Source of the DNA: Terriglobia bacterium
Lineage (GTDB): Bacteria > Acidobacteriota > Terriglobia > Bryobacterales > Bryobacteraceae
Assembly (NCBI GenBank): GCA_020073265.1
Contig: JAIQFN010000006.1
Coordinates: 62,001 to 126,000, forward strand
Direction: 5' to 3'
Length of the DNA: 64,000 nucleotides
In this document: positions 4,387 to 21,302 of the stretch, one piece after another
Numbering within the stretch: position 1 is the stretch's first letter
Layout of the letters: each line of letters opens with the position of its first letter
Notes under the pieces: model-generated
What the model was told of the DNA's origin: nothing
Databases searched by the model: none
Seen by the model: the letters and a program-made list of their open reading frames with translations, nothing else
Position numbers and translations under genes: made by a program

Positions 4387-4877
4387 TCGAAGAAGCGTTC
4401 CTCAAGTATTCCGCCGACGAATTGCTGGTGTTGAGCGGGCGCATTCTGGATTGCCTGGGACGCTTGACGGCCGAGCAGGTCTGGACTCGCGGCAGTGACA
4501 ACGAGAATTCCGTGGGCAACTTGGTGCTGCACCTGTGCGGCAACGTGCGGCAGTGGATCATCTCGGGAGTTGGCGGCGCTGCCGACGTGCGCGACCGCGA
4601 CAGCGAATTCGCGGCGCGCGGCGGCATGCAACCGGCGGAACTGGCGGCCAAGCTCAAGGCGGTGGTCGGCGATGCTGCGGATGTCATTCGCAAACTGCCA
4701 GTGGAGCGGCTAGGCGAACGAAAGACCATCCAAAAGATCTACGAGACCACGCTGATGGAGGCGGTTTATCACGTGGTGGAGCACTTCGCGCAACACACCG
4801 GGCAGATCGTGTTCGCCACCAAGCTGCTGACGAGCGCGGATCTCGGCTACTACAAGCATCTCAGTAAGAGTGCGTAG
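4383..4877 (+). CDS. DinB/DUF1572-like four-helix protein
   Basis: A 164-residue protein starting with GTG that overlaps the E2 stop (GTGA). It has the alpha-helical pattern of the DinB/DUF1572 superfamily, with a histidine in LVLHLCGN near residue 56 and a cluster in [14 protein letters not shown] near 126-138. In this superfamily these histidines form a metal site. Many members are thiol-dependent transferases or have no known function, so no reaction is assigned. Position at the end of the lpdA-lipB-E2 operon may be co-transcription without a shared pathway. Its last 17 bases overlap the end of convergent eutC. Confidence 0.7.
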
Positions 4878-5583
4878 GCGGCAGCGCGCGCGAATCCTCT
4901 TTGAGGCGCACGCCGGACAATTTGAGCCGCCGGGATTCGTTCATCAGAAACAGAAGCTTCTGTGTTGCGGCGGCGTAGCTCAATCCCTCCGCGCGGATAT
5001 TCGAAATACAGTTGCGTTCGGCGTCGGTGCGCCCTCGACGGGGTTGCCAGGTGAGATAGACGCCCAGGCTGTCCGGCGAACTCAGGCCGGGGCGCTCGCC
5101 GACGAAGACCACCGAGAGCTTCGCGCCTAAGAGCTCGCCGATCTCGTCGCCGATCGCTACGCGTCCTTGTTCGACAATCGCCACCGGCGCGACGCGCCAG
5201 TCCAAATTCGAAAGCACCAGTTCGAGCAGCGGCTCCGCGTGGCGATGGACGGCTAGGGCCGAGAGGCCGTCGGCAATGATGAAGGCTGCCTCGTAGTCTC
5301 CCTGGAGCGGCGCTAGACGTTCGCGCGATTCCGCGTTCAACCGGCGGCCCAGGTCCGGTCGATGCAGATATGCGGTGCGATCCGGCGCGGCGCTGGCCAG
5401 CGTCACAAACGCGATGTTCTTCTGCTGCAGCTCAACAACCAACGATCGGACGTCCAGCGCGAGTTGGACGGCGTCGCGCGCTCTGGCGTGCGCGAGTTGA
5501 AAGTCCAGCAGTTCGCTAGTCGGCAGGCTGTGGCCGGCGCGGCCCAGGTCGACGCGCGCCGTGGTGAAGTCGCGGAGTCTCAT
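4861..5583 (-). CDS. eutC: ethanolamine ammonia-lyase small subunit
   Basis: A 240-residue small subunit of the adenosylcobalamin-dependent lyase that converts ethanolamine to acetaldehyde and ammonia. Recognisable family stretches are [15 protein letters not shown] near the N-terminus, IIADGLSA in the middle, [12 protein letters not shown], and [20 protein letters not shown] followed by [11 protein letters not shown] near the C-terminus. The chosen ATG at 5583 overlaps the eutB stop by four bases; the frame remains open upstream but only as a shadow inside eutB. The gene is last in the permease-eutB-eutC operon. No reactivase eutA or microcompartment genes are nearby. Confidence 0.93.
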
Positions 5584-6932
5584 GCTTCGAGCAGCAGACC
5601 GGCCATGCGCGGCAGCTCCTGGCGCGTCCGTTCGAACCAGGTTTCGAATTCGGGAGCCGGGCGCAGGCCGAACACGCTGCGCAGATAGAGCGCGTCGTGG
5701 AAGGACGTGCTCTGATAGTTGAGCATGATGTCGTCGGCGCCAGGGACGCCCATGATGTAATTCACGCCGGCGGCTCCGAGCATGGTCAGCAGAGCGTCCA
5801 TGTCGTCCTGATCGGCTTCGGCGTGATTGGTGTAGCAGATGTCGCAGCCCATCGGAAGCCCGAGCAGCTTGCCGCAAAAGTGATCCTCCAGGCCCGCTCG
5901 CAGGATCTGCTTGCCGTCGAAAAGATATTCGGGGCCGATGAAACCGACCACGGTGTTCACCAGCATCGGGCGGAAGTGGCGGGCCAGCCCGTACGCACGC
6001 GCTTCCAGAGTCTGCTGATCGACACCCTGGTGCGCGTTGGCCGAGAGCGCGCTGCCCTGGCCGGTTTCGAAATACATAACGTTGTTGCCCACCGTGCCGC
6101 GCTTCAGCTCGAGCGCTTGCGCGTGCGCTTCGTCGAGCATGGCGATGTTGACGCCGAACGCGGCGTTCGCCGCTTCGGTGCCGGCGATGGATTGAAACAC
6201 CAGATCCACGGGCGCGCCGCGGCGCATGGCCTCCACCTGCGTGGTGACGTGAGCCAGCACGCAGCTTTGCGTTGGAATCTGGTAGGCGTCGCGCAAGCGG
6301 TCGAGCATGCGCAGCAGAGTTTCGACCGTTCCCAAATTGTCGGACACTGGATTGATGCCAATCACCGCGTCGCCGCTCCCGTAGAGCAGGCCGTCGATGA
6401 TGCTGGCGGCGATTCCTTTCGGATCGTCGGTGGGATGATTCGGCTGCAGGCGCGTGGAGAGGCGTCCAGCGAGTCCGACGGTATTGCGGAAGCGCGTGAC
6501 CACGCGGATCTTCGCCGCCACGGTGACCAGGTCTTGCAGGCGCATGATCTTGGACACGGCCGCTGCCATCTCGGGGATCAGCCCGGGCGCCAGCGCGTTC
6601 AAAACTTCACCCGTGGCTTGATCGCTGAGCAGCCAGTCGCGAAAATCGCCGACGGTCAGGTGAGAGACGGGCGCGAAAGCTTCGGCGTCGTGCTCATCGA
6701 AAATCAAACGCGTGACCTGATCCGATTCGTAGGGGATCACCGGCTCATCGAGGAATGCGCGCAATGGCAGCGCGGCCAGTGCCATTTGCGCTGCCACGCG
6801 TTCTTCGGCGGTAGCGGCGGAGATTCCGGCCAGATCGTCGCCCGAGCGCGCGGGCGTTGCTTTGGCGAGCAGAGTCTTCAGATCGCCGAACTTATAGACG
6901 ACGCTGCCGGCCGCGTGCGAGTATCCGCTCAC
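5580..6932 (-). CDS. eutB: ethanolamine ammonia-lyase large subunit
   Basis: A 450-residue catalytic subunit, essentially the length of enterobacterial EutB. The N-terminal family signature [20 protein letters not shown], the [15 protein letters not shown] stretch, [30 protein letters not shown] and [18 protein letters not shown] all match EutB. I chose the GTG at 6932 because it follows a good ribosome-binding site (AGGGAG, 7 bases away), starts just before the conserved N-terminus, and overlaps the permease stop as GTGA. Longer in-frame starts upstream would run through permease sequence. Function: TIM-barrel subunit holding adenosylcobalamin and ethanolamine. Confidence 0.95.
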
Positions 6933-8368
6933 ACCGGCGCTCCCTGCTTCAGGCGTTCCTGGTGGGCCAGCGCGAACTCCTCCTCGGGAGAAAGCACCAG
7001 CCGCTTGCGAGCGTAGAACGCGAAATACGCCAAGCCGCACAGAAACCAGATGGCCGCGCCGATCACGCCGCGGTTATAGTCGCGATTGATAAACAGCGTG
7101 ACCAGCGTCGCCGCAGCAATGGCCATCGCGAGCACCGCGCCCGCCGTCCCGACCGGGCTGACGTAGGGCCGGTGGATGCGGGGAAATCTTCGCCGCAGCA
7201 GCACGAACGAAAGCATTTGCAGAATGTACGCCAGCACCGCGCCGAAGACCGCCATGTTCAGCAGAATCGCACCCACCGTGCTGGCTTGCCCAGCGAGCTG
7301 GATCCCGAGCGCGGCCGCGAAGCCGAGCGCCGATCCTGCCACGAGCGCCCGGTGCGGTGTCTTGCGCCTGCCGTGCGTGACCGAAAGCCAGGTGGGAAAA
7401 TAACCGGCGCGCGAAAGCGAATAAATCTGGCGGCCGTAAGCGTAGATGATGGTGTGGAAGCTGGCGAGCAGTCCGGTGCAGGCGAACAGCGCCAGGAGCC
7501 GGGTGCGCATCCCTTCGCCGAAGATCGCGCGGAAGCCCAGGAACAGCGGCTCAGTGGACGCTCCGACCTTTTCGGCGCCGGGCGGAATGCCGGCGTTGAG
7601 AATCACGGTGAGGAAAGCGCACAGGATCAACGTGGCGAGGCCGGAGAGAATCCCCTTGGGCATGTCGCGCGCGGGATCGTGCGATTCTTCGGCGGCCAGC
7701 GGCAACTGCTCGATGCCGAGATAAGTCCACAACGCGAACGGAAGCGCGGTGAAGGCGCCCAGCCAACCTTTGGGCAGCCAGCCCGCGCCTTCGATCGCCC
7801 AGCGATTCAAACTGAACAACGGCGCGGCGCCGATGAAGAACACCACCAGAATGGCGAGCGCGCAAATCGTGATGCCCACCGAGACGCGGAACGACATCGC
7901 CACGCCGCCGGCGTTCAAAGCGACGAACACCGCGTAACAAGCCAGCCACCACAGCGGCGCCCAGGCGGGCGGAGTCTGGAAGATGGCGCCGAGATAGCCG
8001 CCCACGCCCACCACGATGACGGCGGGCGTCAAAATGTACTCCATATTTTCGGCCAGGCCGGTGATGTAGCCGCCCCACGGTCCCATGGCGGTGCGCGCGA
8101 ACGAGTAGGCGCCGCCGGTGTGCGGCAGCGCGGGCGACATCTCGGCGATGCTGAAGCACAGGCCGATGTAGAGCACGGTCATCACCGCCAGGGCGGCCAG
8201 CATGCCACCGAATCCCCCGGCGGTGAGGCCGAAGTTCCAGCCGAAGAAATCGCCCGAGATGACGGCGCCGACGCCCAGCGCCCACAGGTCGAGCACGCGG
8301 GCGTGCCGCCGGAGCGCGCGTTTTTCCAGGTAGCCGGCGTCAGGCTTGATATAGGCGCGCTGGTCCAC
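6929..8368 (-). CDS. eat: ethanolamine permease, APC superfamily
   Basis: A 479-residue polytopic membrane protein with about 12 hydrophobic segments. The N-terminal segment LWALGVGAVISGDFFGWNFGL and the stretch AEMSPALPHTGGAYSFARTAMGPWGGYITGLAEN are typical of the ethanolamine permease branch of the amino acid-polyamine-organocation superfamily. It starts 38 bases after the cupin gene and overlaps eutB by four bases. Adjacent eutBC makes ethanolamine the likely substrate. The acidic, polar C-terminus (SPEEEFALAHQERL) is cytoplasmic by prediction. Confidence 0.9.
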   Translation of the reverse strand: MDQRAYIKPDAGYLEKRALRRHARVLDLWALGVGAVISGDFFGWNFGLTAGGFGGMLAALAVMTVLYIGLCFSIAEMSPALPHTGGAYSFARTAMGPWGGYITGLAENMEYILTPAVIVVGVGGYLGAIFQTPPAWAPLWWLACYAVFVALNAGGVAMSFRVSVGITICALAILVVFFIGAAPLFSLNRWAIEGAGWLPKGWLGAFTALPFALWTYLGIEQLPLAAEESHDPARDMPKGILSGLATLILCAFLTVILNAGIPPGAEKVGASTEPLFLGFRAIFGEGMRTRLLALFACTGLLASFHTIIYAYGRQIYSLSRAGYFPTWLSVTHGRRKTPHRALVAGSALGFAAALGIQLAGQASTVGAILLNMAVFGAVLAYILQMLSFVLLRRRFPRIHRPYVSPVGTAGAVLAMAIAAATLVTLFINRDYNRGVIGAAIWFLCGLAYFAFYARKRLVLSPEEEFALAHQERLKQGAPV

Positions 8369-10589: not shown

Positions 10590-12482
10590 ATGGGTGTGAC
10601 CGCGATAGACGCAGTCCGTTACCAGGCCGTTTTGCCTGACGAGGACTACTGGCGCCGTCAAATCAAGTGCCAATATGCCTGCCCAGTCCACACGGATGCG
10701 CGCGGCTACGTGCGGGCTATCGCGCAGGGTGCGTACAATCGCGCATACCAGATCGCGCGCGGCCCGAACCCACTGGCCTCCATCTGCGGCCGGATTTGTG
10801 GGGCGCCGTGCGAAGTGGCGTGCCGGCGCGGATCCATCGACCAGCCGATCGCCATCCGGGGGCTCAAGCGCTTTGTCGCCGATCAGTTCGGGCGCGACCG
10901 GCGCTCGCCGTCCGATTTTCCGCCCGGTGACTGCGACGGCCTGGACGAGATGGTCAACCTGGCGCGCTTCCTGGCTTCGCGCGAGTACACAAAACCGACT
11001 GGCGACCCCATCGCCATCATCGGTTCCGGCCCGGCGGGCCTCGCGGCGGCGCACGACCTGGCTCTCATGGGCGTGCCTTCGGTCATCTTCGAATCCGAAG
11101 TCAAACCGGCTGGAATGCTCTACACCGGCGTTCCGGCGTACCGGCTGCCGCGCGATCTGATCGACGCCGAGATCGACCTGATTCGGGCGCTGGGCGTCGA
11201 GTTTCGCTGCGGCGTCAAGATCGGCCGCGACATGCAGTTCGACGACCTGCGCCGCGATTACCGCGCCGTGATTATAGCCGTGGGAGCCAAGCGCGCTCGC
11301 ATGCTGTCGTTGCCCGGCGCCGACGCCGAAGGCATTTTCGGCGGCGTCGATTTTCTGCGCGCCGTCGCGCTCGGCGAACAGGTGCCCATCGGACGCCGTG
11401 TGATCGTGATTGGAGGCGGCAACGTCGCTTACGATGTCTCGCGCTCGGCGGTTCGTTATCTGATGAGCGAGCAGCGCGAGCCGGAACGCGTGGTGGAGTG
11501 GCAGATCGAGGCCGACATTTCCCGCGTCGCGGCGCGACAGCCCGCGGTGAACGAAGTCCACCTGGTGTGCCTGGAATCGCGCGCGGAAATGCCCGCGGAC
11601 GAAGTGGAGATTCACGAGGGCGAGGAAGAGGGGATTTTTCGGCACAATAGCCTCGGCCCCAAGGAGTTTCTGTACTCGGATTCCAGCGGACGGCGGCGCG
11701 TCACCGGAGTTCGATTCCGGCGCGTGCTCTCGGTGTTTGACGAAAACCGCCGCTTCCGGCCGGTCTACGACGAAAACGAAACCGTCGACCTGGAAGCCGA
11801 CACGGTGCTGCTCTCGGTGGGTCAGTCGCCGGACGTGAGTTTTCTCGGTCCCGACGTGAATTGGCAGGTGAATCCCGAGACCGGCGAGATCGGCCTGGCG
11901 GGCGTGTTCGCGGCGGGCGACGTCGCTTACGGCGCGCGCTTGATGATCGATGCCATCGCTAGCGGCAAGAAAGCGGCCCGCGAGGTCTACCGCTTCCTCA
12001 CCGGCCGCCAGATCCAGCCCCGCGAAACGCAGTTGCATTTCGAAATCGAAGACTACCACCGGGAACAGGGCTACGAGAGCCGCCGCAGGTTGACGATTCC
12101 AATCGCGCCGGTTCACGAGCGTCTCGCGGATCCGCAACGGCTGGTGGAAACCGGCTACACGGAAACGCAGGCGGTGTCGGAGGCCGGCCGTTGCCTGGAC
12201 TGCGGCGTCAACACCATCTTCGACGGTGAGAAGTGTATTCTCTGCGGCGGATGCGTGGACGTTTGCCCGACGCTCTGCCTGAAGCTGGTGGGGCTCGATC
12301 AATTGGCGCCCTCCGAAGAGCTCGGCACGCTGGCAGAAATGTACGGCGCCGCGCCGGAGTGGTCGGCCATTCTCAAGGACGAAGAGCGCTGCATCCGTTG
12401 TGCATTGTGCGCGCAACGCTGCCCGACGCATGCGATCACGATGGAACGATTTCAATTCACCCAGGAGTGGAGTTATGCATGA
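10590..12482 (+). CDS. GltD-like NAD(P)H/FAD oxidoreductase with C-terminal 2[4Fe-4S]
   Basis: A 630-residue soluble flavoprotein. Domains in order: an N-terminal Cys-rich helical domain (C27, C31, C66, C70, C74, C78) as in the glutamate synthase small subunit; an FAD dinucleotide fold with GSGPAG at about 145-150; an NAD(P) fold with GGGNVAYD near 275; a closing FAD motif GVFAAGDVAYG near 445; and a ferredoxin domain with CILCGGCVDVCP (from about 549) and CIRCALCAQRCP (from about 601). It starts after GGAG and overlaps the Rieske gene by 8 bases, so it belongs to the Rieske/cytochrome b operon and probably links that complex to NAD(P)H or ferredoxin. Glutamate synthase activity is unlikely, as no large subunit is present. 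Confidence 0.85.
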   Translation: MGVTAIDAVRYQAVLPDEDYWRRQIKCQYACPVHTDARGYVRAIAQGAYNRAYQIARGPNPLASICGRICGAPCEVACRRGSIDQPIAIRGLKRFVADQFGRDRRSPSDFPPGDCDGLDEMVNLARFLASREYTKPTGDPIAIIGSGPAGLAAAHDLALMGVPSVIFESEVKPAGMLYTGVPAYRLPRDLIDAEIDLIRALGVEFRCGVKIGRDMQFDDLRRDYRAVIIAVGAKRARMLSLPGADAEGIFGGVDFLRAVALGEQVPIGRRVIVIGGGNVAYDVSRSAVRYLMSEQREPERVVEWQIEADISRVAARQPAVNEVHLVCLESRAEMPADEVEIHEGEEEGIFRHNSLGPKEFLYSDSSGRRRVTGVRFRRVLSVFDENRRFRPVYDENETVDLEADTVLLSVGQSPDVSFLGPDVNWQVNPETGEIGLAGVFAAGDVAYGARLMIDAIASGKKAAREVYRFLTGRQIQPRETQLHFEIEDYHREQGYESRRRLTIPIAPVHERLADPQRLVETGYTETQAVSEAGRCLDCGVNTIFDGEKCILCGGCVDVCPTLCLKLVGLDQLAPSEELGTLAEMYGAAPEWSAILKDEERCIRCALCAQRCPTHAITMERFQFTQEWSYA

Positions 12483-12933
12483 AGAACCATCCCGCCGCCG
12501 CGACTTTCTCGGCTTGGCCGCCATCTGGAGCTCGGCGCTAGCGATGGGCGCGGCCATAGCCGGCATGTTGCGCCTGCCCAAGCCGGCCGTGCTGCCCGGG
12601 CCTTTGCGCGTTTTCAAACTCGGCGATCCGGCCCAGTTCGCCGTCGGCTCGGTCACCAAGCTCGAGGCCGCCAACCTGCTTCTGTTCCGCGATGAGAAAG
12701 GATTCCACGCCATCTCGTCGGTGTGCACGCACCTGGGCTGCATCGTCGCCCACAACGAAGGAGAAGGTTTCGCCTGCCCCTGCCACGGCTCGCGCTACAA
12801 CGAGGACGGCGCGGTGATCGCAGGCCCGGCGCCCACCGGACTGCCCTGGCTTGAAATCTCGCTCTCGCCCGACGGCCAACTGGAAGTCAACGCCGAGTCC
12901 CAGGTGAACCGCGGGACCATCTTCAGAGCCTGA
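12475..12933 (+). CDS. Rieske [2Fe-2S] protein
   Basis: A 152-residue Rieske subunit with an N-terminal twin-arginine-type membrane anchor (SRRRDFLGLAAIW, hydrophobic to about residue 32). The cluster-binding motifs are C84-T-H86-L-G-C89 and C101-P-C103-H104-GS, so all four ligands and both disulfide cysteines are present. The ATG at 12475 has AGGAG 7 bases upstream and overlaps the end of the flavoprotein gene. It sits immediately before cytochrome b and would oxidise quinol at the positive side of the membrane and pass electrons to a c-type cytochrome. Confidence 0.93.
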   Translation: MHEEPSRRRDFLGLAAIWSSALAMGAAIAGMLRLPKPAVLPGPLRVFKLGDPAQFAVGSVTKLEAANLLLFRDEKGFHAISSVCTHLGCIVAHNEGEGFACPCHGSRYNEDGAVIAGPAPTGLPWLEISLSPDGQLEVNAESQVNRGTIFRA

Positions 12934-12937
12934 CATT

Positions 12938-14467
12938 ATGACGTCCGCACAGGAGTTCTTGAAAAATCTGAAGGAGACGCCGCGAAACCTGCGCGAGTCG
13001 ATGCTGCGCGTCGGCCACGCGCCCGAGACCGATCGCGAGCGCTCCCAGAGCACCTTCCACAATCTGTTTCTGCATCTGCAGAGCGTGCGCACGCACCGGG
13101 CGTCGCTGCGCTTCAGCTATACCTTCGGACTCGGACTGATTCTCACCGCCTCGTTCGCGGTCCTCACGGTGACGGGCATCCTGCTGATGGTTTACTACAA
13201 GCCGTCCACGGATCTTGCCTACCAATCCTTGAAAGACATCCACTACGTGGTGCCGGCCGGCCGATTCATCCGCAACATTCACCGCTGGGCGGCGCATTTG
13301 ATGGCGGCGGCCGTGTTCCTGCACATGGCCCGCGTGTTTTACACCGGGTCCTACAAGCATCCGCGCGAATTCAACTGGCTGGTCGGCCTGGCGCTGCTGG
13401 TGATGACGCTGGGTCTCAGTTTTACCGGCTACTTGCTGCCCTGGGATCAGCTGGCCTACTGGGCCATCACCATCGGCGCCAACATCGCCAACTCGCCGCG
13501 CGAAGTGACCGACGCGTTAGGCATCACCAAGTGGTTCGATGTCGGCGGATTCCAAAAGCAGCTCCTACTGGGAGCCAACTACGTCGGCCAGGAAGCTCTC
13601 ATCCGCTTCTACGTGTTGCATGTCGCCGTGCTGCCGCTGGCCATCACGGCCTTCATGGGCATCCATTTCTGGCGGGTGCGCAAGGACGGCGGATTGTCGC
13701 GCGACGTGACGGCGCCGGCGGTTCCCGCACAAATCGCGGGCCGCGACCTCAACGTCTTCGCGCCCACCAAGACGTACGGCCTGATGGCGGTGGTGCGCGG
13801 GCGCACTCCCGTAGTGGGCCGAGCGCCGGAAGGCAGCGTGCCAAGCTGGCCGCATCTGCTGTGGGCCGAAATGGCCGCGCTCATGTTCACGGTGGCGCTC
13901 ACGCTGGTGCTGGGCTACTTCTCCGACGCACCGCTCAAGGAAATGGCCAACCCCGCCATTCCCGAAAATCCCGCCAAGGCGCCGTGGTATTTTCTGGGGC
14001 TGCAGGAGCTGGTCAGCTACTCCGCTTTCATGGGCGGCGTGGGAATTCCCAGCATCGTGCTCATCGGTCTGGGCCTGATTCCTTATCTCGACCGCGATCC
14101 GCGCGGCGTCGGCAAATGGTTCGGCGGCCCGGAGGGGCGTGGCGTGTTCTGGCGATCGCTGCTGTTCGGCCTGCTCAGCGTGCTCGCTCTGCTGACGTTC
14201 ACCGTCAACTTTGGCTGGCTGCGATCGTGGTTCCCGCAGATCCCCCAGCTTTTCATCATCGCGCTCAATCCCGGCACGGTGATTGTCGCGGTCTACATGG
14301 CGTGGTCGCTGTGGGTGTTGCGACGCAGCCAGTCAGTTCGCATGTCCGCGGTCGCGCTGTTCACCTGCTTCCTGGCCGGATTCGTGGTCTTGACCGCCAT
14401 GGGCAGCATTTTCCGGGGACCCAACTGGCACTTCTACTGGTGGCCCAGTCAGTGGCCGGTGCATTAG
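12938..14467 (+). CDS. cytochrome b (fused b6 plus subunit-IV type)
   Basis: A 509-residue membrane cytochrome b. The N-terminal haem-binding four-helix part has ligand pairs H115/H129 and H228/H243; the second pair is separated by 14 residues, as in b6f-type rather than mitochondrial-type cytochrome b. A C-terminal part with further helices follows, containing APWYFLGLQELVSY in place of the canonical PEWY quinol-site motif. Fused b6/IV and a hydrophilic N-terminal extension of about 55 residues are seen. It starts 4 bases after the Rieske stop. Together with the Rieske protein and the next cytochrome c it forms a quinol-oxidising module. Confidence 0.92.
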   Translation: MTSAQEFLKNLKETPRNLRESMLRVGHAPETDRERSQSTFHNLFLHLQSVRTHRASLRFSYTFGLGLILTASFAVLTVTGILLMVYYKPSTDLAYQSLKDIHYVVPAGRFIRNIHRWAAHLMAAAVFLHMARVFYTGSYKHPREFNWLVGLALLVMTLGLSFTGYLLPWDQLAYWAITIGANIANSPREVTDALGITKWFDVGGFQKQLLLGANYVGQEALIRFYVLHVAVLPLAITAFMGIHFWRVRKDGGLSRDVTAPAVPAQIAGRDLNVFAPTKTYGLMAVVRGRTPVVGRAPEGSVPSWPHLLWAEMAALMFTVALTLVLGYFSDAPLKEMANPAIPENPAKAPWYFLGLQELVSYSAFMGGVGIPSIVLIGLGLIPYLDRDPRGVGKWFGGPEGRGVFWRSLLFGLLSVLALLTFTVNFGWLRSWFPQIPQLFIIALNPGTVIVAVYMAWSLWVLRRSQSVRMSAVALFTCFLAGFVVLTAMGSIFRGPNWHFYWWPSQWPVH

Positions 14468-14476
14468 GAGCTTTGG

Positions 14477-15925
14477 ATGAAACCGTCCTCCGATCCATCC
14501 CGAACCTACAAATGGGCCACGCTGGTTTGCGCTGTGGTGGCCGTGGGCTTTCTGTTCGCCGCGGCAGTGCGCGAGAACATCTCAGCGGACTGGCGCCGAT
14601 ACCAGGCCAACTACAAAAAGATTCTGCTGGCGAAGGCTACCGACGACACCGCGCGCCGCACGGCCGAGCGCTTCCCCATCGAGATCCGCCAGGTCACCGT
14701 CCCAACGCTGGGCGCGGTGGACCGTTGCGTGAGCTGCCACAACGGGATCGACGATCCGCGCATGGCCTCCGAGGCGAATCCTTACAAGACTCATCCCAAG
14801 GGCTTGCTCAAAATTCATCCAGTCGAGCGATTCGGCTGCACCGTGTGCCATCAGGGACAGGGCGCAGCGCTCAATTTCCAGGAAGCCAAGGCAGAGGATT
14901 ACTTCTGGGATTACCCGCTGCTGCCGGCGTCGCTCACCGAGGCAACCTGCAACTCCTGTCACGATCCGGACGCGCTGCCTCCGGGCGCTGCCGCTAAATT
15001 GGTCCGCGGCAAGAAGCTCTACTTCGAGAAAGGCTGCGCCAGTTGCCACAAGCTGGACGGCAAGGGTGGATCGCTCGGGCCCGCGCTGGATAACGTCGGC
15101 CTCAAGACCAAGCACCAGTTCATGCGCGCGCAGCTACAAGGTTCGCAGACCGTGTGGAACTGGATGGCGGAGCATTTCCGCGATCCCGCCAAGATCGTGC
15201 CGGCCAGCTTGATGCCCGCTCCGGCGTTGACCGAACTCGACACCCAGGCGCTGACCGTTTACATGCTCTCGCTCCGGCAACGCGAGATACCGTCCGAATA
15301 TCTGGCGCGCGACAAGATCGAAGAAAAGTACGCCCGCCTGCATCCCGGCGAGCCGGATGGCAAGACGCTGTACCAGCAGTATTGCGCCTCCTGCCACGAC
15401 ACCGGATTGTTCACGCGCTGGGACAAGAAATTCGGACGATTTGTTCCTGGCATCCGGAACTCAGCGTTTCTCAAAACAGAAGAGGATGAATGCCTGCTGG
15501 AGACGGTCCGCGAAGGCCGCCCCGGCACGCGCATGCCCGGCTGGGGACCCAAAGCTGGTGGCTTGACCGAAAAGGAATTGAGCGCCGTGCTCGGCTACCT
15601 GCGCACCAGCGCGCCGTTCCAGGATCTGCCGCCGGCCCCCGAGCGCGGTTCCGCCGAGCGCGGCAAGGTTCTGTTCAACCACGAATGCGCGGGCTGCCAC
15701 GGCACGGACGGCAAGGGACTGATCGCCCCGGCCTTGGCGAATCCCGTGTTCCAAAAGGCCGCCTCGGACGCTTTTATCGCGCAGACCATCCGGCTGGGAC
15801 GCGAAAACACTCCTATGCCAGCGTTCGGGCGCGCCGGCATCAGCGAGCAGGAGATCGGCGACGTGCTGGCCTATCTTCGCCAGTGGGAACCCAAAGGGCC
15901 GCCGGCGCAGCGAGCAGGGAGATGA
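14477..15925 (+). CDS. membrane-anchored hexahaem cytochrome c
   Basis: A 482-residue protein with a single N-terminal membrane anchor (about residues 11-33) and six CxxCH motifs: CVSCH, CTVCH, CNSCH, CASCH, CASCH and CAGCH. The last three lie in class-I-like domains (for example CASCHKLDGKGG and CAGCHGTDGKGL with downstream Met-containing segments). It lies 9 bases after cytochrome b and 4 bases before the Mo subunit, so it probably carries electrons between the Rieske/b module and the NarGH-like enzyme on the periplasmic side. It is larger than cytochrome c1 or f, a feature seen in some bacterial and anammox Rieske/b complexes. Confidence 0.9.
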   Translation: MKPSSDPSRTYKWATLVCAVVAVGFLFAAAVRENISADWRRYQANYKKILLAKATDDTARRTAERFPIEIRQVTVPTLGAVDRCVSCHNGIDDPRMASEANPYKTHPKGLLKIHPVERFGCTVCHQGQGAALNFQEAKAEDYFWDYPLLPASLTEATCNSCHDPDALPPGAAAKLVRGKKLYFEKGCASCHKLDGKGGSLGPALDNVGLKTKHQFMRAQLQGSQTVWNWMAEHFRDPAKIVPASLMPAPALTELDTQALTVYMLSLRQREIPSEYLARDKIEEKYARLHPGEPDGKTLYQQYCASCHDTGLFTRWDKKFGRFVPGIRNSAFLKTEEDECLLETVREGRPGTRMPGWGPKAGGLTEKELSAVLGYLRTSAPFQDLPPAPERGSAERGKVLFNHECAGCHGTDGKGLIAPALANPVFQKAASDAFIAQTIRLGRENTPMPAFGRAGISEQEIGDVLAYLRQWEPKGPPAQRAGR

Positions 15926-15929
15926 TGGA

Positions 15930-18683
15930 ATGAACAACCGACGCGATTTCTTGAAAATGGCCGGCTTGGCCGCGCTCGGGGCCTCGATCCCCGGCTGCCG
16001 CAAGGGCGAGAAGCCGGTGCTCGAAAGCTTCGTCTCCAATCCCGATCCGCTGCACGCCTATCCGTATCGTTCCTGGGAGGACCTGTACCGCAAGCAGTGG
16101 ACCTGGGACAAAGTAGTGCGCTCCACTCATTCGGCCAACTGCACCGGCTCGTGCAGTTGGAACGTCTACGTGCGCGACGGCATCATGATCCGCGAGGAGC
16201 AGGCCGCCGATTATCCGCCCATCTCCGCCGAACTGCCCGATTACAATCCCCGCGGCTGCCAAAAGGGCGCCTGCTTCACCGAGTATGTCTATGGACCACA
16301 GCGGCTGCGTTCACCGTTGATCCGGGTGGGCGAGCGCGGCGAGGGCAAATGGCGCAAGGCCAGTTGGGACGAGGCGCTCACTCTCATCGCCGGCAAGCTG
16401 CTGGACAACATCCACAACTACGGCCCCGATACCAATACCTACTTCAGCGTGATTCCGGCCATGAGCCCGGTGTCGTTCTCCGCCGGATCGCGGTTCGCGC
16501 ACTACACCGGCGGGGTGTTCTGCTCGTTCTACGACTGGTACTGCGACCTGCCGCCCGGCGAGCCGCTCACCTGGGGAGTGCAAACCGAGTCCTGCGAGTG
16601 CGCGGACTGGTTCAACTCCAAGTACATCGTGCTGTGGGGCAGCAACATTTCCCAGACCCGCATCCCGGATGCCCACTTCGCCTATGAGGCGCGCTACAAC
16701 GGCGCCAAGCTGGTGGGAATCTCGCCGGATTTCAACTCCAGCATGGTCCACATGGATCTGCATTTGTCCATTCAGCCGGGCACGGACGCCGCGCTGGCGC
16801 AGGGCGTGGCGAAGTACATCATCGACAACCGGCTGTACGACGAACCCTACATCAAGGAGCAGACCGATCTGCCGTTGCTGGTGGACAAGCGCACCGGCCG
16901 CTTCGTTCGCCCCGAGGGCCACTCCGACATATTTCTCTTTCACGACGGCAAGACTGGCGCGCGCAAGGAAGCGCCTGGCTCCATGGGGTCCAAGGAGAAA
17001 ACCATCGCGCTGGCCGGCGCGGATCCCGATCTGCACTACACCGACGGCGACGTGACCACGGTGTTCGAGCTGCTTCGGAAAAAGCTCGAGCCTTACACCC
17101 TGGAAGCCGTCGCGAAGATCACCGGTCTCAATCTCAACGACATCCGCCGTTTCGCCCACGAACTGGGAACGCGCAAGCCGGCCATGATCATCCATGGCGC
17201 CGGGCTGAATCACTGGTTCCACAATGACTTGGTGAATCGCTCGCTTATCCTGCTGGTGGCGTTGACGGGCAACGTCGGCAAGAACGGCGGCGGGTTCAAT
17301 CACTATGTGGGGCAGGAGCGCGTCTGGCCGGAGCGCGGCTTCCGAGCGTACTCGTTTCCGGAAGGCGCCAAGAAGCAGCGTATGCAAAACATGACGCTGT
17401 GGACCTACATGCACTCCTCCAACAAAGATCATCACCTGTATAACGGCAAGCCGGTGGAGTGGTACATCGAGGAGAGCATCAAGAACGGCTGGATGCCGCT
17501 GTATCCGAAAAAGCGCGACCAGAAACCGCGCGCGCTGATCGTATGGCGCGCCAACTATCTCAACCAGGCCAAGGGCAACGAGCACATCCTGCGATCGCTG
17601 TGGAAAGACCTGGACCTCATCGTGGATATCAACTACCGCATGGACACCACGGCGCTGTACTCCGACGTGGTGCTGCCGGCCGCCACCTACTACGAAAAGT
17701 CGGACATCAACACCACCGACTGCCATAGCTACATTCACCCCTTCAACAAAGTCCTGGACCCGCTGTACGACTCGAAATCGGACTGGGAGATTTTCCGCGA
17801 GCTGGCCAGGAAATTTTCAGAATTGGCGGGCGAACACAATCTCGCGCACTTCAAGGACGAGCAACTCGGCTGGGACCGCGACTTCACCAAGACCTACGAC
17901 CTATGGTCCGGCAACGGAAAATTCCAGTCGCCCGAGGATGCGGCGAACTTCATCATGTCCAGTTCGCCGGAGACCGCCGGCCTCACCTTCGAGCAACTCA
18001 AGGAGCACCCGTATCGTTTCCGCAAGATCGATGAAGAGGCCTGGAACAGCGACATCAAGGACGGCGTCGCCTACACGCCCTTCCAACATCAGCTCGAGCG
18101 TAAGCGGCCCTGGCGCACCCTCACCGGACGCCAGCAGTTCTACATCGACCATCCCTGGTTTCTCGACCTGGACGAACAACTGCCTACCTACAAAGAACCG
18201 CTGGGCGAGAGCGCCAAGTATCCGTTCTTCTGGAACACGCCGCACGGCCGCTGGTCCATCCATTCCACCTGGCGCGACGCGCGCTATCAACTGCGCCTGC
18301 AGCGCGGCATCCCCATCGTGTACATGCATCCGGAGGACGCGCGCGAGCGGGGCATCCAGGACAACGACTGGGTGAAGGTCTTCAACGACAACGGAGCCTT
18401 CGTCACCAAGGTCCAGATTCTTCCCGGCGAGAAACGGAAGCGGCTGACCATGTATCACGGCTGGGAGCGCTACCTCGGGTTCCTCGAGGGCGGCTGGCAG
18501 TCGCCCACCTATATCAAGATCAAGCCCACGCAACTGGTGGGCGGCTACGGCCACGTCAATTTCCGGCTCAACTACTGGGGGCCGACCGGCAACAATCGCG
18601 ACCTTCGCGTCGACATCGTGAAATACACGCCCACGCCGGCGGATCTGCGCGTGATCCACCGCAACGGGAAGGAAAGGACCTAG
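15930..18683 (+). CDS. NarG-like molybdopterin oxidoreductase (type II, Tat-exported)
   Basis: A 917-residue catalytic subunit of the DMSO-reductase family. The twin-arginine signal NRRDFLKMAGLAAL at the N-terminus puts it on the periplasmic side. The [4Fe-4S] site is H67-x3-C71-x3-C75 and C110, with the His that marks type II (NarG-like) enzymes and the same His-Cys spacing as E. coli NarG. D202 in SFYDWYCDLPPG corresponds to the Mo-ligand Asp of NarG. It is much shorter than cytoplasmic NarG (about 1240). Close relatives by motif are periplasmic nitrate reductases, nitrite oxidoreductases and selenate/chlorate-type enzymes. Substrate is inferred as nitrate/nitrite but not proven. Confidence 0.88.
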   Translation: MNNRRDFLKMAGLAALGASIPGCRKGEKPVLESFVSNPDPLHAYPYRSWEDLYRKQWTWDKVVRSTHSANCTGSCSWNVYVRDGIMIREEQAADYPPISAELPDYNPRGCQKGACFTEYVYGPQRLRSPLIRVGERGEGKWRKASWDEALTLIAGKLLDNIHNYGPDTNTYFSVIPAMSPVSFSAGSRFAHYTGGVFCSFYDWYCDLPPGEPLTWGVQTESCECADWFNSKYIVLWGSNISQTRIPDAHFAYEARYNGAKLVGISPDFNSSMVHMDLHLSIQPGTDAALAQGVAKYIIDNRLYDEPYIKEQTDLPLLVDKRTGRFVRPEGHSDIFLFHDGKTGARKEAPGSMGSKEKTIALAGADPDLHYTDGDVTTVFELLRKKLEPYTLEAVAKITGLNLNDIRRFAHELGTRKPAMIIHGAGLNHWFHNDLVNRSLILLVALTGNVGKNGGGFNHYVGQERVWPERGFRAYSFPEGAKKQRMQNMTLWTYMHSSNKDHHLYNGKPVEWYIEESIKNGWMPLYPKKRDQKPRALIVWRANYLNQAKGNEHILRSLWKDLDLIVDINYRMDTTALYSDVVLPAATYYEKSDINTTDCHSYIHPFNKVLDPLYDSKSDWEIFRELARKFSELAGEHNLAHFKDEQLGWDRDFTKTYDLWSGNGKFQSPEDAANFIMSSSPETAGLTFEQLKEHPYRFRKIDEEAWNSDIKDGVAYTPFQHQLERKRPWRTLTGRQQFYIDHPWFLDLDEQLPTYKEPLGESAKYPFFWNTPHGRWSIHSTWRDARYQLRLQRGIPIVYMHPEDARERGIQDNDWVKVFNDNGAFVTKVQILPGEKRKRLTMYHGWERYLGFLEGGWQSPTYIKIKPTQLVGGYGHVNFRLNYWGPTGNNRDLRVDIVKYTPTPADLRVIHRNGKERT

Positions 18684-18686
18684 GCC

Positions 18687-19703
18687 ATGTCAATCCACCA
18701 GATCTCGATGGTGCTCGACTTGAACAAGTGCCTGGGTTGCCAGACCTGCACCATGGCTTGCAAGAAACTCTGGACCGACGGCGACGGCATGGATTACATG
18801 TACTGGAACAACGTCGAGACGCGGCCCGGGCAAGGCTACCCGCGCAACTGGGACAAGATCGGCGGCGGCTTCGAAAACGGCCGGCTACGCCCCAGCGACA
18901 TCCCCACCAAAGAAGACTACGGCCAGACTTTCGAATACAACTATTCCGAGCGCCTGTTCGAGGGCGGACTGCAGGCCATGCCTCACCAGGAAGTGCGCAA
19001 CACTCCCAACTGGGACGAGGACGTCGGCTCGCTGATGCTGGGCGAGAACTATTACTTCTACCTGCCGCGCATCTGCAACCACTGCACGAATCCCGCCTGC
19101 CTGGCCGCCTGCCCGCGCAACGCGATTTACAAACGCGAGGAAGACGGCATCGTGCTGGTGGACCAGGAGCGCTGCGAAGGCTACCGCTATTGCATGCGCG
19201 CCTGCCCCTACAAGAAGATCTACTTCAACGAGCTGCTGGGCAAGGCGCAGAAGTGCATCTTCTGCTATCCGCGCATCGAAAAAGGCGAAGTGAACGCTTG
19301 CGCCAAACAGTGTCCCGGACGTCTGCGCTTCGTCGGATATCTGGACGATCCCAATTCCGCCGTACACAAGCTGGTGCACGTTTATAAGGTCGCGCTCGGC
19401 CTGTTCCCCGAGAAAGGCACCGGGCCGAACGTCTTCTACGTGCCGCCATTCAATCCTCCGCGCAAGGGCAACTATGGCAAGAGCATTCTCGAAGATCCCC
19501 GCATGCCGATCGATTACCTGGTCTATTTGTTCGGCGAGCAGGTGACGGATGTCATCCGGCGGCTGGAAGGGGAACTGCAGAAGGCCCAGAATGGCGGAAG
19601 CAGCGAGGTGTTGCAGTTGCTGATCGGCCGCGACGCCAGTGTGCGTTATCAAATCCCCAAGCGCGAAGAGCTGATCCATATTCAAGGAGCGAAAAAAGCA
19701 TGA
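18687..19703 (+). CDS. NarH-like Fe-S electron-transfer subunit
   Basis: A 338-residue beta subunit with four Fe-S cluster motifs: CLGCQTCTMAC near the N-terminus, CNHCTNPACLAACP, CEGYRYCMRACP and CIFCYPRIEKGEVNACAKQCPG. In the third motif the second cysteine is replaced by tyrosine, which in NarH-type subunits (Trp/Tyr) gives a [3Fe-4S] cluster. No signal peptide is visible, as expected for a subunit co-exported with the Tat-signalled alpha subunit. It begins 3 bases after the alpha-subunit stop. It would carry electrons between the Mo site and the haem-b gamma subunit. Confidence 0.92.
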   Translation: MSIHQISMVLDLNKCLGCQTCTMACKKLWTDGDGMDYMYWNNVETRPGQGYPRNWDKIGGGFENGRLRPSDIPTKEDYGQTFEYNYSERLFEGGLQAMPHQEVRNTPNWDEDVGSLMLGENYYFYLPRICNHCTNPACLAACPRNAIYKREEDGIVLVDQERCEGYRYCMRACPYKKIYFNELLGKAQKCIFCYPRIEKGEVNACAKQCPGRLRFVGYLDDPNSAVHKLVHVYKVALGLFPEKGTGPNVFYVPPFNPPRKGNYGKSILEDPRMPIDYLVYLFGEQVTDVIRRLEGELQKAQNGGSSEVLQLLIGRDASVRYQIPKREELIHIQGAKKA

Positions 19704-20398
19704 AGAGCGTTGCGCTAGTTGCTTTGTGGTGCGCCGCCTCGGGAGTTCTGGCCCGGGCCGAGCTGCACACCATACCGGTCACGCCGGCATCGGCCGAAGG
19801 CGCGCTCGATCCTTCCTCGCCTATGTGGAAAACCGCTACACCGGTTTCGCTCGGCCTGCAGCGCACGCCGCTGCTCTATCCCACCGACCAACCCGCTGCA
19901 CTCGACATCACCTCGGTCCAGGTTCAGTTGCTGCGCGCTTCCGGACATGTCTGGGTGAGGCTGGAGTGGCAGGATAAGTCGCGCAACTCGGCCGAGCTGC
20001 CGGAAGCCAAGCGAGCCTGGCAGGGCGGGCACCTGGTGGCGCAATCGGAAGCCACCGATCGATTCTCGGACGCCTGCGCCGTCATGCTGCCCGCGACAAC
20101 CGGTGCCTCCGAGGTGTTCCCCGCGCTGCAAATGGGCGACGCCGCGCATCCGGTCCAGATCTATTTCTGGGACGCGACTCGCGGCACTGCCGTCATGGAA
20201 GCCAAGGGACGCGAAACTACCCACCGCACCGGAAAGAAGTTCCCCTCGCAATCCGTGTGGAAGGAAGGCAAATGGATGGTGACGCTGGAACTGCCCGAAT
20301 TCGCGGCCGGAACACCGCTGGCCGTCGCCCTCTGGAACGGTGACCAGCAGGATCGGGATGGAAGGAAATACTTTTCGGTATGGTACAAGACGCAATAA
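19700..20398 (+). CDS. haem-b gamma subunit (ethylbenzene dehydrogenase-type)
   Basis: A 232-residue protein with a cleavable signal peptide (MKSVALVALWCAASGVLARA). The beta-rich core with VQVQLLRASGHVWVRLEWQDKSRN, the PALQMGD segment and WDATRGTAV resemble the EB_dh/cytochrome-b558 gamma family, which binds one haem b in the periplasm. The methionine in ALQMGD is a candidate axial ligand. Start overlaps the beta-subunit stop by four bases. With the alpha and beta subunits it completes a soluble or peripheral alpha-beta-gamma type II Mo enzyme. Confidence 0.82.
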   Translation: MKSVALVALWCAASGVLARAELHTIPVTPASAEGALDPSSPMWKTATPVSLGLQRTPLLYPTDQPAALDITSVQVQLLRASGHVWVRLEWQDKSRNSAELPEAKRAWQGGHLVAQSEATDRFSDACAVMLPATTGASEVFPALQMGDAAHPVQIYFWDATRGTAVMEAKGRETTHRTGKKFPSQSVWKEGKWMVTLELPEFAAGTPLAVALWNGDQQDRDGRKYFSVWYKTQ

Positions 20399-20925
20399 AT
20401 CCCTGGGCCACATTTCGCTTCGCGCTGGGCTATCCCGATGAGCGGCACCTGGAGTTCTTCGCGGAACACTTGGGCCGTCCGCCCTCCAGCCTGGAAACTC
20501 TGCGTTCGGAGTACATCGACTGGTTTGAGGCCGGCCTGCCGCATCCCAAGTGTCCGCTGCTCGAAGCCTACTATCTGTTGAACCGTCCGGCCGGCGAAGT
20601 GGTGCTGGAGAACAAGCTGTTCTTCCAGCATTTCGGACTCTCGATGCAATCCAAGGCCGCGCCGGATCATTTGCTCACGCAGTTGGAGTTTCTGAGCTGG
20701 CTGGAGCATTGCATCGCGGTGGGCAATCCGGAGTCGCAATCGCTCGCGCGGGCACGCAAGGATTTTGTCGAGCGGCACCTGCGGCACTGGATTCCGCGCG
20801 CGGCGCAATCGCTCGCCAATCGCGGCGCCGGATGTTACGCCGACGTGTTTGCCGCGCTCGCGGCCCAGGTGGAGGAAGTTGTTCGCGAGGGTGCGAGCGA
20901 AAATCCAAGCGAGGTCCAAGCATGA
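20380..20925 (+). CDS. NarJ/TorD-family Mo-enzyme chaperone
   Basis: A 181-residue all-helical protein starting inside the end of the gamma-subunit gene (19-base overlap). The pattern of YPDERHLEFFAEHLG, EYIDWFEAG, PKCPLLEAYYLLNRP and FFQHFGL matches TorD/NarJ/DmsD-like chaperones that bind the Tat signal of the catalytic subunit and assist cofactor insertion. This fits the Tat-signalled alpha subunit four genes upstream in the operon order. No membrane segment. Confidence 0.82.
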   Translation: MVQDAINPWATFRFALGYPDERHLEFFAEHLGRPPSSLETLRSEYIDWFEAGLPHPKCPLLEAYYLLNRPAGEVVLENKLFFQHFGLSMQSKAAPDHLLTQLEFLSWLEHCIAVGNPESQSLARARKDFVERHLRHWIPRAAQSLANRGAGCYADVFAALAAQVEEVVREGASENPSEVQA

Positions 20926-21302
20926 AATTACGAATTCACGGCAACTCCATTCGTCTGCGTCTGAACCGGCGTGAGGTGGCGCAGTTCGCCGCGGCCGGAG
21001 GTCTGGAAGAAGCGTTCGAGTACGGAGGCGACCCTGGAAACCGGTTGGTTTACCGGATCGAATCCTCGAACAGCGCGCCGGCCATCGCGGTGCGGGTTTC
21101 AAACCAGGCCATCAGCATCGTGCTGCCTGCCGCGCTGGCTCAAGCCTGGACCAACACGGACCGAGTTGGCGTGAGCGGCGACGTGCCTCTCCAAGGCGAC
21201 AAACGGATGACGGTCCTGGTCGAAAAGGAATTCCGCCGATTGCACGGGGCGACTTTCGATCCAGATCTCTATCCGAATCCCCTGGAAGCGAAGACCGCTT
21301 AG
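20922..21302 (+). CDS. small conserved protein, DUF7009-like
   Basis: A 126-residue soluble protein beginning MKLRIHGNSIRLRLNRREVAQ. This N-terminus is characteristic of a small conserved family I recall as DUF7009, found near nitrogen-respiration genes; its function is unknown. The ATG overlaps the chaperone stop by four bases (ATGA), so it is the last gene of the respiratory operon. Its end overlaps the end of the convergent LacI-type regulator by four bases. Confidence 0.7.
   Translation: MKLRIHGNSIRLRLNRREVAQFAAAGGLEEAFEYGGDPGNRLVYRIESSNSAPAIAVRVSNQAISIVLPAALAQAWTNTDRVGVSGDVPLQGDKRMTVLVEKEFRRLHGATFDPDLYPNPLEAKTA

Follow-up and report, generated by a model that had tools for sequence, protein, structure and literature searches.

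What does a flavoprotein with a nicotinamide adenine dinucleotide (phosphate) (NAD(P)) site do at the head of an operon for a Rieske/cytochrome b complex? The question is raised by a stretch of 64,000 nucleotides (hereafter the window) from a Terriglobia bacterium of the phylum Acidobacteriota (assembly GCA_020073265.1, contig JAIQFN010000006.1, positions 62,001 to 126,000). Here, nine genes lie on one strand in the order flavoprotein, Rieske protein, cytochrome b, hexaheme cytochrome c, molybdoenzyme subunits alpha, beta, and gamma, chaperone, and DUF7009 protein. The flavoprotein is very probably an NAD(P)-linked module of the Rieske/cytochrome b complex. For the locus as a whole, our best explanation, held with evenly divided confidence, is that a cytoplasmic NAD(H) module sits on a Rieske/b complex that feeds a NarGH-type nitrate reductase on the periplasmic side. 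An initial annotation had described the operon as a flavoprotein with Rieske/b genes, which is correct so far as it goes but stops short of the molybdenum oxidoreductase genes that follow on the same strand (15930–20925).

The flavoprotein and its cofactor sites

The flavoprotein gene (10590–12482, plus strand) is an open reading frame of 630 residues with an ATG start. Its stop codon (12480–12482) lies beyond the ATG of the Rieske gene at 12475, and the 8-base overlap given in the initial annotation is thus borne out. Fer4_20, Pyr_redox_2, and Fer4, the last in two C-terminal stretches, all score above their Pfam cut-offs, whereas the top NCBIfam model, the GltD-like PRK12771, scores below its own. 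Together with the structure search, these domains describe a GltD/NfnA-like flavin adenine dinucleotide (FAD) protein with a Rossmann NAD(P) site. Sixteen cysteines (27, 31, 66, 70, 74, 78, 535, 538, 549, 552, 555, 559, 601, 604, 607, and 611), Lys93, and Glu329 are invariant across 109 aligned family members, with the sole exception of Cys66, which is lost once. These cysteines are ligands enough for four [4Fe-4S] clusters, the likely complement predicted from the sequence, and the 2[4Fe-4S] of the initial annotation is therefore an undercount.

A sequence search of the PDB with the flavoprotein gave NfnABC first (9bov and 9bp5, which are identical in sequence), followed by StnABC, Thermococcus NfnABC, and NfnI. 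An AlphaFold2 model calculated from 30 sequences (mean predicted local distance difference test score of 85.5) likewise has NfnABC (9bov) as its top structural match, far beyond chance (Z score 34.4, 514 residues, root-mean-square deviation 6.8); StnABC is also among the top structural matches, and NfnI fits at 2.6 Å over 394 residues. In the PDB alignments, Cys-Leu-Glu (residues 327–329) replaces the Tyr-Arg-Arg of NfnABC and StnABC. An Arg pair of this kind holds the phosphate of NADP, and an acidic residue favors NAD(H); the replacement therefore suggests NAD rather than NADP as the nucleotide. The small subunit of glutamate synthase was rejected as an identity, since the cluster has no GltB-like gene and the Arg pair is replaced.

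A search limited to the nine clustered genes found no Nfn-type flavin-bifurcating partner subunit with a second flavin. Electron bifurcation, which the initial annotation had raised, is possible, but without such a partner its more likely site would be where cytochrome b binds quinol rather than the flavin of this protein. The flavoprotein has no signal peptide, whereas the Rieske protein and the alpha subunit have twin-arginine translocation (Tat)-type N-termini, as read by eye. The flavoprotein would thus probably sit on the cytoplasmic side, with the Rieske protein and alpha outside.

The anammox parallel that the initial annotation had drawn is real. Two Rieske/b complexes with an NAD(P) oxidoreductase, Kuste4569–4574 and Kustd1480–1485, have been described in the anammox bacterium Kuenenia stuttgartiensis; the proposal for both is that the electrons of quinol part ways, some going to a high-potential acceptor and the others to NAD(P)+ (Hauser 2025, PMC12954380). 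The structural match reported there for Kuste4570 is again NfnABC (9bp5). Lys93, invariant in the 109 flavoproteins, is a candidate for the buried Lys of the Kuenenia-type FAD-proximal three-Cys cluster.

Conservation of the block and features of its cytochrome b

Two sets of loci were collected. Within Acidobacteriota, 46 of 149 genomes have a flavoprotein match at E 1e-60 or better, and 40 of the 55 matches outside the window's own genome were fetched, the remaining 15 ranking 39th or lower. Among GTDB species, the best 80 of at least 580 relatives were taken. The sets overlap in part (L094 and L061 are on contigs of equal length), and both, consisting of best matches to the query, are biased to close relatives. 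A Rieske gene lies within 400 bp downstream of the flavoprotein gene in 78 of the 80 GTDB loci (75 of 76 when only loci with 600 bp or more of downstream sequence are counted); L124 ends at the gene, and L100 has no Rieske gene in the 2 kb downstream. Of the 73 GTDB loci that extend far enough, all but L100 and L125 have cytochrome b within 1.5 kb (71 loci). In the Acidobacteriota set, 30 of 40 loci (30 of the 38 evaluable) have the Rieske gene within 400 bp downstream; L075 has a Rieske gene with no cytochrome b match. In eight more, cbb3 oxidase genes intervene, and the flavoprotein gene comes several kb after those for cytochromes b and c; the Rieske gene is present in six of these, and in the other two the stretch stops at cytochrome b. 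As to the last two loci, the contig of L057 ends at the gene, and L055, a 32%-identical homologue, lacks Rieske/b genes. The survey of gene neighborhoods suggested in the initial annotation, which had named missing adjacency as what would count against its reading, thus found the adjacency conserved in other genomes and supports the functional partnership with the Rieske/b complex claimed there.

By record titles, the loci with an adjacent Rieske gene come from at least 16 phylum-level lineages, including Acidobacteriota, Planctomycetota, Verrucomicrobiota, Gemmatimonadales, Binatota, Omnitrophota, Latescibacterota, Hydrogenedentota, Zixiibacteriota, KSB1, Poribacteria, Armatimonadetes, and Deltaproteobacteria. 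Since these are almost all metagenome-assembled genomes, individual lineage assignments may be mis-binned. A flavoprotein match at E 1e-30 is present in 17 of 23 Brocadiia-class genomes; of five Brocadiia-class stretches, two carry the block with NxrA-like genes next to it, one shows just the Rieske and cytochrome b genes, and two have neither. Two further layouts were observed: L113 (2697–21896) holds a tandem pair of Rieske/b systems with a GltD-like gene in each and a NapA-like gene after the second, and L139 (13926–16784) has a cytochrome with 19 CxxCH motifs where the hexaheme cytochrome c would stand.

The three proteins are co-inherited. Pairwise distances across 108 loci correlate at 0.932 for flavoprotein and cytochrome b, 0.899 for flavoprotein and Rieske, and 0.872 for cytochrome b and Rieske, and none of 500 permutations reached any of these values. 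The flavoprotein might instead be soluble and handle NAD(P)H in some other task, such as maturation or redox supply, with no more than the operon in common with the complex: a shared operon does not require a complex, several kb separate the genes in the eight cbb3-type loci, and related Rieske/b complexes occur without a flavoprotein. We consider this very unlikely in view of the adjacency across at least 16 phylum-level lineages with varied partner enzymes, the correlation with cytochrome b, which is at least as tight as that of the Rieske protein, and the reported comigration of all Kuste4569–4574 subunits (PMC12954380).

The Rieske [2Fe-2S] protein (12475–12933, plus strand), identified by Pfam and sequence, has a twin-arginine N-terminus and the motifs CTHLGC...CPCHGSRY, in which both Ser106 and Tyr108 are present; these two residues have been linked to high potential (PMC12954380). 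The cytochrome b (12938–14467, plus strand; Pfam, NCBIfam, and alignment) is a 509-residue fusion of b6 and subunit IV, and split forms exist among its relatives. It has the four heme-b ligands His115, His129, His228, and His243, together with an extra His46 and R246/R248-K249-D250. His46 is present in all 109 linked cytochromes b (the window and 108 loci), and in the aligned sequences the only departure from R246, R248, K249, and D250 is one His at 248. The window has APWY and not PEWY; Pro takes the place of the PEWY Glu in each of the 91 linked sequences that extend over the site. In Kuenenia, an extra b heme has been proposed, held by His43 or His62 with an Arg/Lys about 204 residues on; the pairs are His43/Arg247 and His62/Arg266-Lys267, in Kuste4571 and Kustd1481 (Hauser et al., PMC12954380). 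The spacing of His46 and R248-K249 in the window equals that of this proposed heme site within two residues.

The genome's two other Rieske/b complexes have Pro or Glu at position 46, and PEWY is present. One of them, a canonical-looking pair (PEWY, no His46), lies on the same contig, ending ~5.3 kb before the window begins (G000:C50:55438-56719; L005, L158, L159), and the third pair of the genome is on contig C51 (L004, L157). A related complex type (L190–L205) consists of a Rieske protein, a four-helix cytochrome b, a separate large subunit IV, an octaheme cytochrome c of ~1000 residues, and often a cupredoxin-like gene; it has His46, with no flavoprotein match in the stretch. As an exclusive marker of flavoprotein-linked complexes, His46 was ruled out by the control loci considered below.

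The terminal enzyme and its exchange among loci

The remaining genes of the run, all on the plus strand, encode a c-type cytochrome with six CxxCH motifs and an N-terminal hydrophobic segment (14477–15925; Pfam and motif count), a molybdopterin alpha subunit of the type II dimethyl sulfoxide (DMSO) reductase family with a twin-arginine N-terminus (15930–18683), an iron–sulfur beta subunit (18687–19703), a gamma subunit of the ethylbenzene-dehydrogenase type (19700–20398; EB_dh above the Pfam cut-off, TIGR03477 below its cut-off), a NarJ/TorD-type chaperone (20380–20925; Nitrate_red_del above cut-off), and, as the final gene, a DUF7009 protein (20922–21302; Pfam, start codon picked by eye). Alpha scores 1118.5 bits with TIGR03479 (cut-off 984.75) and keeps the Mo-ligand Asp, and beta scores 485.9 bits with TIGR03478 (cut-off 480.7).

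The closest solved structure to alpha by sequence is perchlorate reductase PcrA, at 49.9% identity over the aligned part; the other identities are 49.7 and 48.8% with haloarchaeal proteins, 41.8% with two NarG, 37.3% with ClrA, and 28.2% with an NxrA-like protein. The nearness to PcrA speaks for a (per)chlorate or other oxyanion reductase, an assignment that we find doubtful on two grounds. The column of PcrA Trp461, an aromatic gate, holds Glu in the window alpha and in all seven window-type relatives compared, and the two NarG and two haloarchaeal sequences have Glu there too. In addition, the operon has no chlorite dismutase gene (cld), and the genome's only Cld-family match is on another contig (G000:C77:17633-18304) and is probably, in our reading, the heme-synthesis type HemQ. 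Perchlorate reductase was rejected as the first choice on the gate residue and the lack of cld in the operon. The window matches the pattern of haloarchaeal pNar, namely a NarG-like alpha with a Tat-type N-terminus and an operon with Rieske/b and an EB_dh gamma subunit. Haloarchaeal nitrate reductase and Rieske/b genes are reported to share one cluster, and antimycin A to inhibit the nitrate reductase reaction (PMC4683180). The Glu at the gate and the likeness to the haloarchaeal Rieske/b-linked operon make nitrate the best guess, and the terminal reaction is, judged from sequence, likely to be nitrate reduction. In the alpha tree, the window-type alphas form a group of their own (100/99) with no resolved deep link to PcrA, NarG, ClrA, or the haloarchaeal sequences, and orthology to haloarchaeal NarG is therefore not claimed.

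The enzyme accompanying the block is exchanged among the loci. Its class was taken as the best match in the fetched stretch to examples from the window or the loci, which are not curated, and adjacency was not required. The 120 loci comprise 34 with an NxrA-like partner, 17 NapA-like, 13 with a cytochrome-porin (U546), 9 with a cbb3 oxidase, 8 with the window-type Nar/Pcr-like enzyme, 5 with nitrous oxide reductase, 3 AioA/IdrA-like, 2 with NarG, 1 with a weak molybdopterin match, and 28 with none seen. Among the 92 classed loci, 44 have acceptor-type partners (Nap, cbb3, Nar/Pcr, NosZ, AioA/IdrA, and NarG), 34 are NxrA-like, and 13 are possible donors; the 44 acceptor-type partners agree with what a quinol-bifurcation scheme requires. 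The NxrA-like example has Kuenenia NxrA as its top PDB match, and the NarG example scores above the NarG equivalog cut-off. AioA/IdrA-like proteins occur at L111, L142, and L147; L142, the one scanned, encodes the enzyme's Rieske subunit as well, together with two diheme cytochromes of the MauG type, as is known for iodate reductase clusters. U546 (L036–L051, 10 loci; L091, L119, and L148), which lies near the block and often has cupredoxin-like genes with it, has the monoheme consensus PAFARKYQTSCxTCH, and its model is a porin barrel at low confidence (59.8). Cyc2 and Cyc572 are described as cytochrome-porin fusions (PMC10654088), and in our own reading U546 resembles a Cyc2-like cytochrome-porin; the organisms that bear it are possible metal oxidizers. 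Apparent fusions of cytochrome c with alpha in L038 and L064 were discarded as reading-frame artefacts, the long frame having no CxxCH.

A scan for promoters and terminators was uninformative (0 and 12 sites versus shuffled means of 2.1 and 9.8). On the opposite strand, 5′ of the operon, lies an ethanolamine ammonia-lyase cluster (4861–8368, minus strand) with EutB (Pfam) and an amino-acid permease; a reading frame adjoining EutB resembles EutC in our reading. Farther downstream, an 868-residue open reading frame (38337–40943, plus strand) has no Pfam family at E 1e-10.

Direction of electron flow and comparison with known complexes

Here, we propose a mechanism in which menaquinol would be oxidized at the positive-side quinol site. 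One electron would pass from the Rieske protein to the hexaheme cytochrome c and on through gamma, beta, and alpha to nitrate. The other would move from heme b to heme b and through the four [4Fe-4S] clusters and FAD to NAD+, yielding NADH; between the b hemes and the [4Fe-4S] clusters it may pass an additional heme that His46 would hold at the dimer interface. The nitrate/nitrite couple has a potential of about +420 mV. With −70 mV for menaquinone and −320 mV for NAD(P)+ (PMC12954380), and menaquinone assumed, an estimate with two electrons going each way leaves ~46 kJ per mol of NADH, and the window's version could thus run downhill. We judge the chances to be even that the complex bifurcates quinol electrons and, on balance, makes NADH.

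The main rival has the same complex running in reverse. NADH would reduce FAD, the iron–sulfur clusters, the b hemes, and a quinone on the cytoplasmic side, and the quinol would deliver electrons through the Rieske protein and cytochrome c to nitrate, so that the whole would act as a self-contained NADH:nitrate oxidoreductase. The anatomical evidence is equally compatible with this direction, the genome's two other Rieske/b complexes suggest that this one may serve a dedicated NADH-fed acceptor, and the absence of a heme cN Cys could leave a bc1-like cytoplasmic quinone site. In Kuenenia, such flow has been argued to waste energy, since this organism makes ion-translocating NADH dehydrogenases (PMC12954380), an argument specific to Kuenenia; reverse flow is possible for the window, at a chance well below even. 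It is also conceivable that a high-potential donor and the proton-motive force drive reverse electron transport to NAD+, alpha then oxidizing nitrite. The NxrA-like partners (34 of 120 loci) and cytochrome-porins (13 of 120), which may belong to nitrite and iron oxidizers, would fit such a role. The window alpha falls in the Nar/Pcr group and is only 28% identical to the compared NxrA-like protein, however, and the nitrous oxide reductase (5 loci) and cbb3 (9 loci) partners are acceptor enzymes, which makes this direction quite unlikely.

Several observations weigh against a quinol-bifurcating, nitrate-reducing complex that includes the flavoprotein. In 20 control loci that show no flavoprotein match over the fetched 5–17 kb, His46 with RxR(K/R)D is found 16 times, and a 17th locus has His in that column. 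The heme cN Cys is absent from the window cytochrome b, b6 Cys35 aligning with Gly64 with no Cys nearby, and the electron path must therefore differ from that of Kuenenia. Only 10 of 115 linked Rieske sequences (window included) have Ser and Tyr, 102 having Ser and Phe. One GTDB locus has a Rieske gene without cytochrome b, and another lacks both. Common species history contributes to all three distance correlations, and the Rieske protein is short. The NxrA-like (34 of 92) and cytochrome-porin (13 of 92) partners could supply electrons instead of accepting them, in which case the flow would be reversed, and PcrA is as near to alpha as the haloarchaeal protein is (49.9 versus 49.7%).

Beyond the window, the block recurs beside different respiratory enzymes, so that the electron-splitting device by which anammox bacteria are proposed to make NADH may be common and open to testing. 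We suggest tentatively, at a little short of an even chance, that the flavoprotein/Rieske/b/multiheme-c block is a general portable NADH-making "complex III", present in at least 16 phylum-level lineages and attached to varied high-potential enzymes, of which the anammox complexes would be one case and the window the nitrate case. The bifurcation proposal rests on anammox bacteria, which are hard to manipulate, and the presence of the block in carriers of nitrate, nitrous oxide, or oxygen reductases would make testing feasible elsewhere. If the suggestion is true, the NADH supply and energy yield of many uncultured bacteria would have to be recounted, and the varied partners on a constant block offer a natural experiment to find the part responsible for the coupling. 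No report of such a flavoprotein linked to Rieske/b and a nitrate, nitrous oxide, or oxygen reductase was found among the listed titles and abstract openings of open-licence PMC papers, the lists being capped, which is weak evidence of novelty.

The flavoprotein resembles the large subunits of NfnABC, StnABC, and NfnI and the small subunit of glutamate synthase in its Fer4_20 domain and its FAD and NAD(P) Rossmann fold (Z score 24–34) but stands alone as a polypeptide and carries a C-terminal 2[4Fe-4S] set of its own. The molybdoenzyme is like PcrAB in belonging to the type II DMSO reductase family at ~50% identity, with the Mo-Asp and FS0 His kept, and differs by having Glu at the Trp461 gate and no cld in the operon. 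Plasmids of Haloferax larsenii and Halomicrobium urmianum have the same order of Rieske, cytochrome b, alpha, beta, EB_dh gamma, and TorD. Their alpha is annotated only as a molybdopterin-dependent oxidoreductase, NarG being our reading; their operon shows no GltD-like protein and no multiheme cytochrome c in the stretches examined, and their cytochrome b, ~28% identical to that of the window, has a gap at His46 and PDWF.

The closest described complex, compared by its published description, is the NAD(P)-linked Rieske/b complex of Kuenenia. Both combine a Rieske protein, a b6-type cytochrome b, a multiheme cytochrome c, and a cytoplasmic FAD/iron–sulfur NAD(P) protein matching NfnABC, with an extra His and Arg/Lys at matching spacing and, as in Kuste4569, Ser and Tyr in the Rieske box. 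They differ in that Kuenenia has separate b6 (a four-helix cytochrome b) and subunit IV with heme cN modeled, whereas the window form is fused and has no cN Cys, and in the HAO-like octaheme protein Kuste4574, in place of which the window has a NarGH-type molybdoenzyme. The kind of complex is thus known from anammox bacteria; what is of note here is the completed operon with a nitrate-reductase-type enzyme and the breadth of the block.

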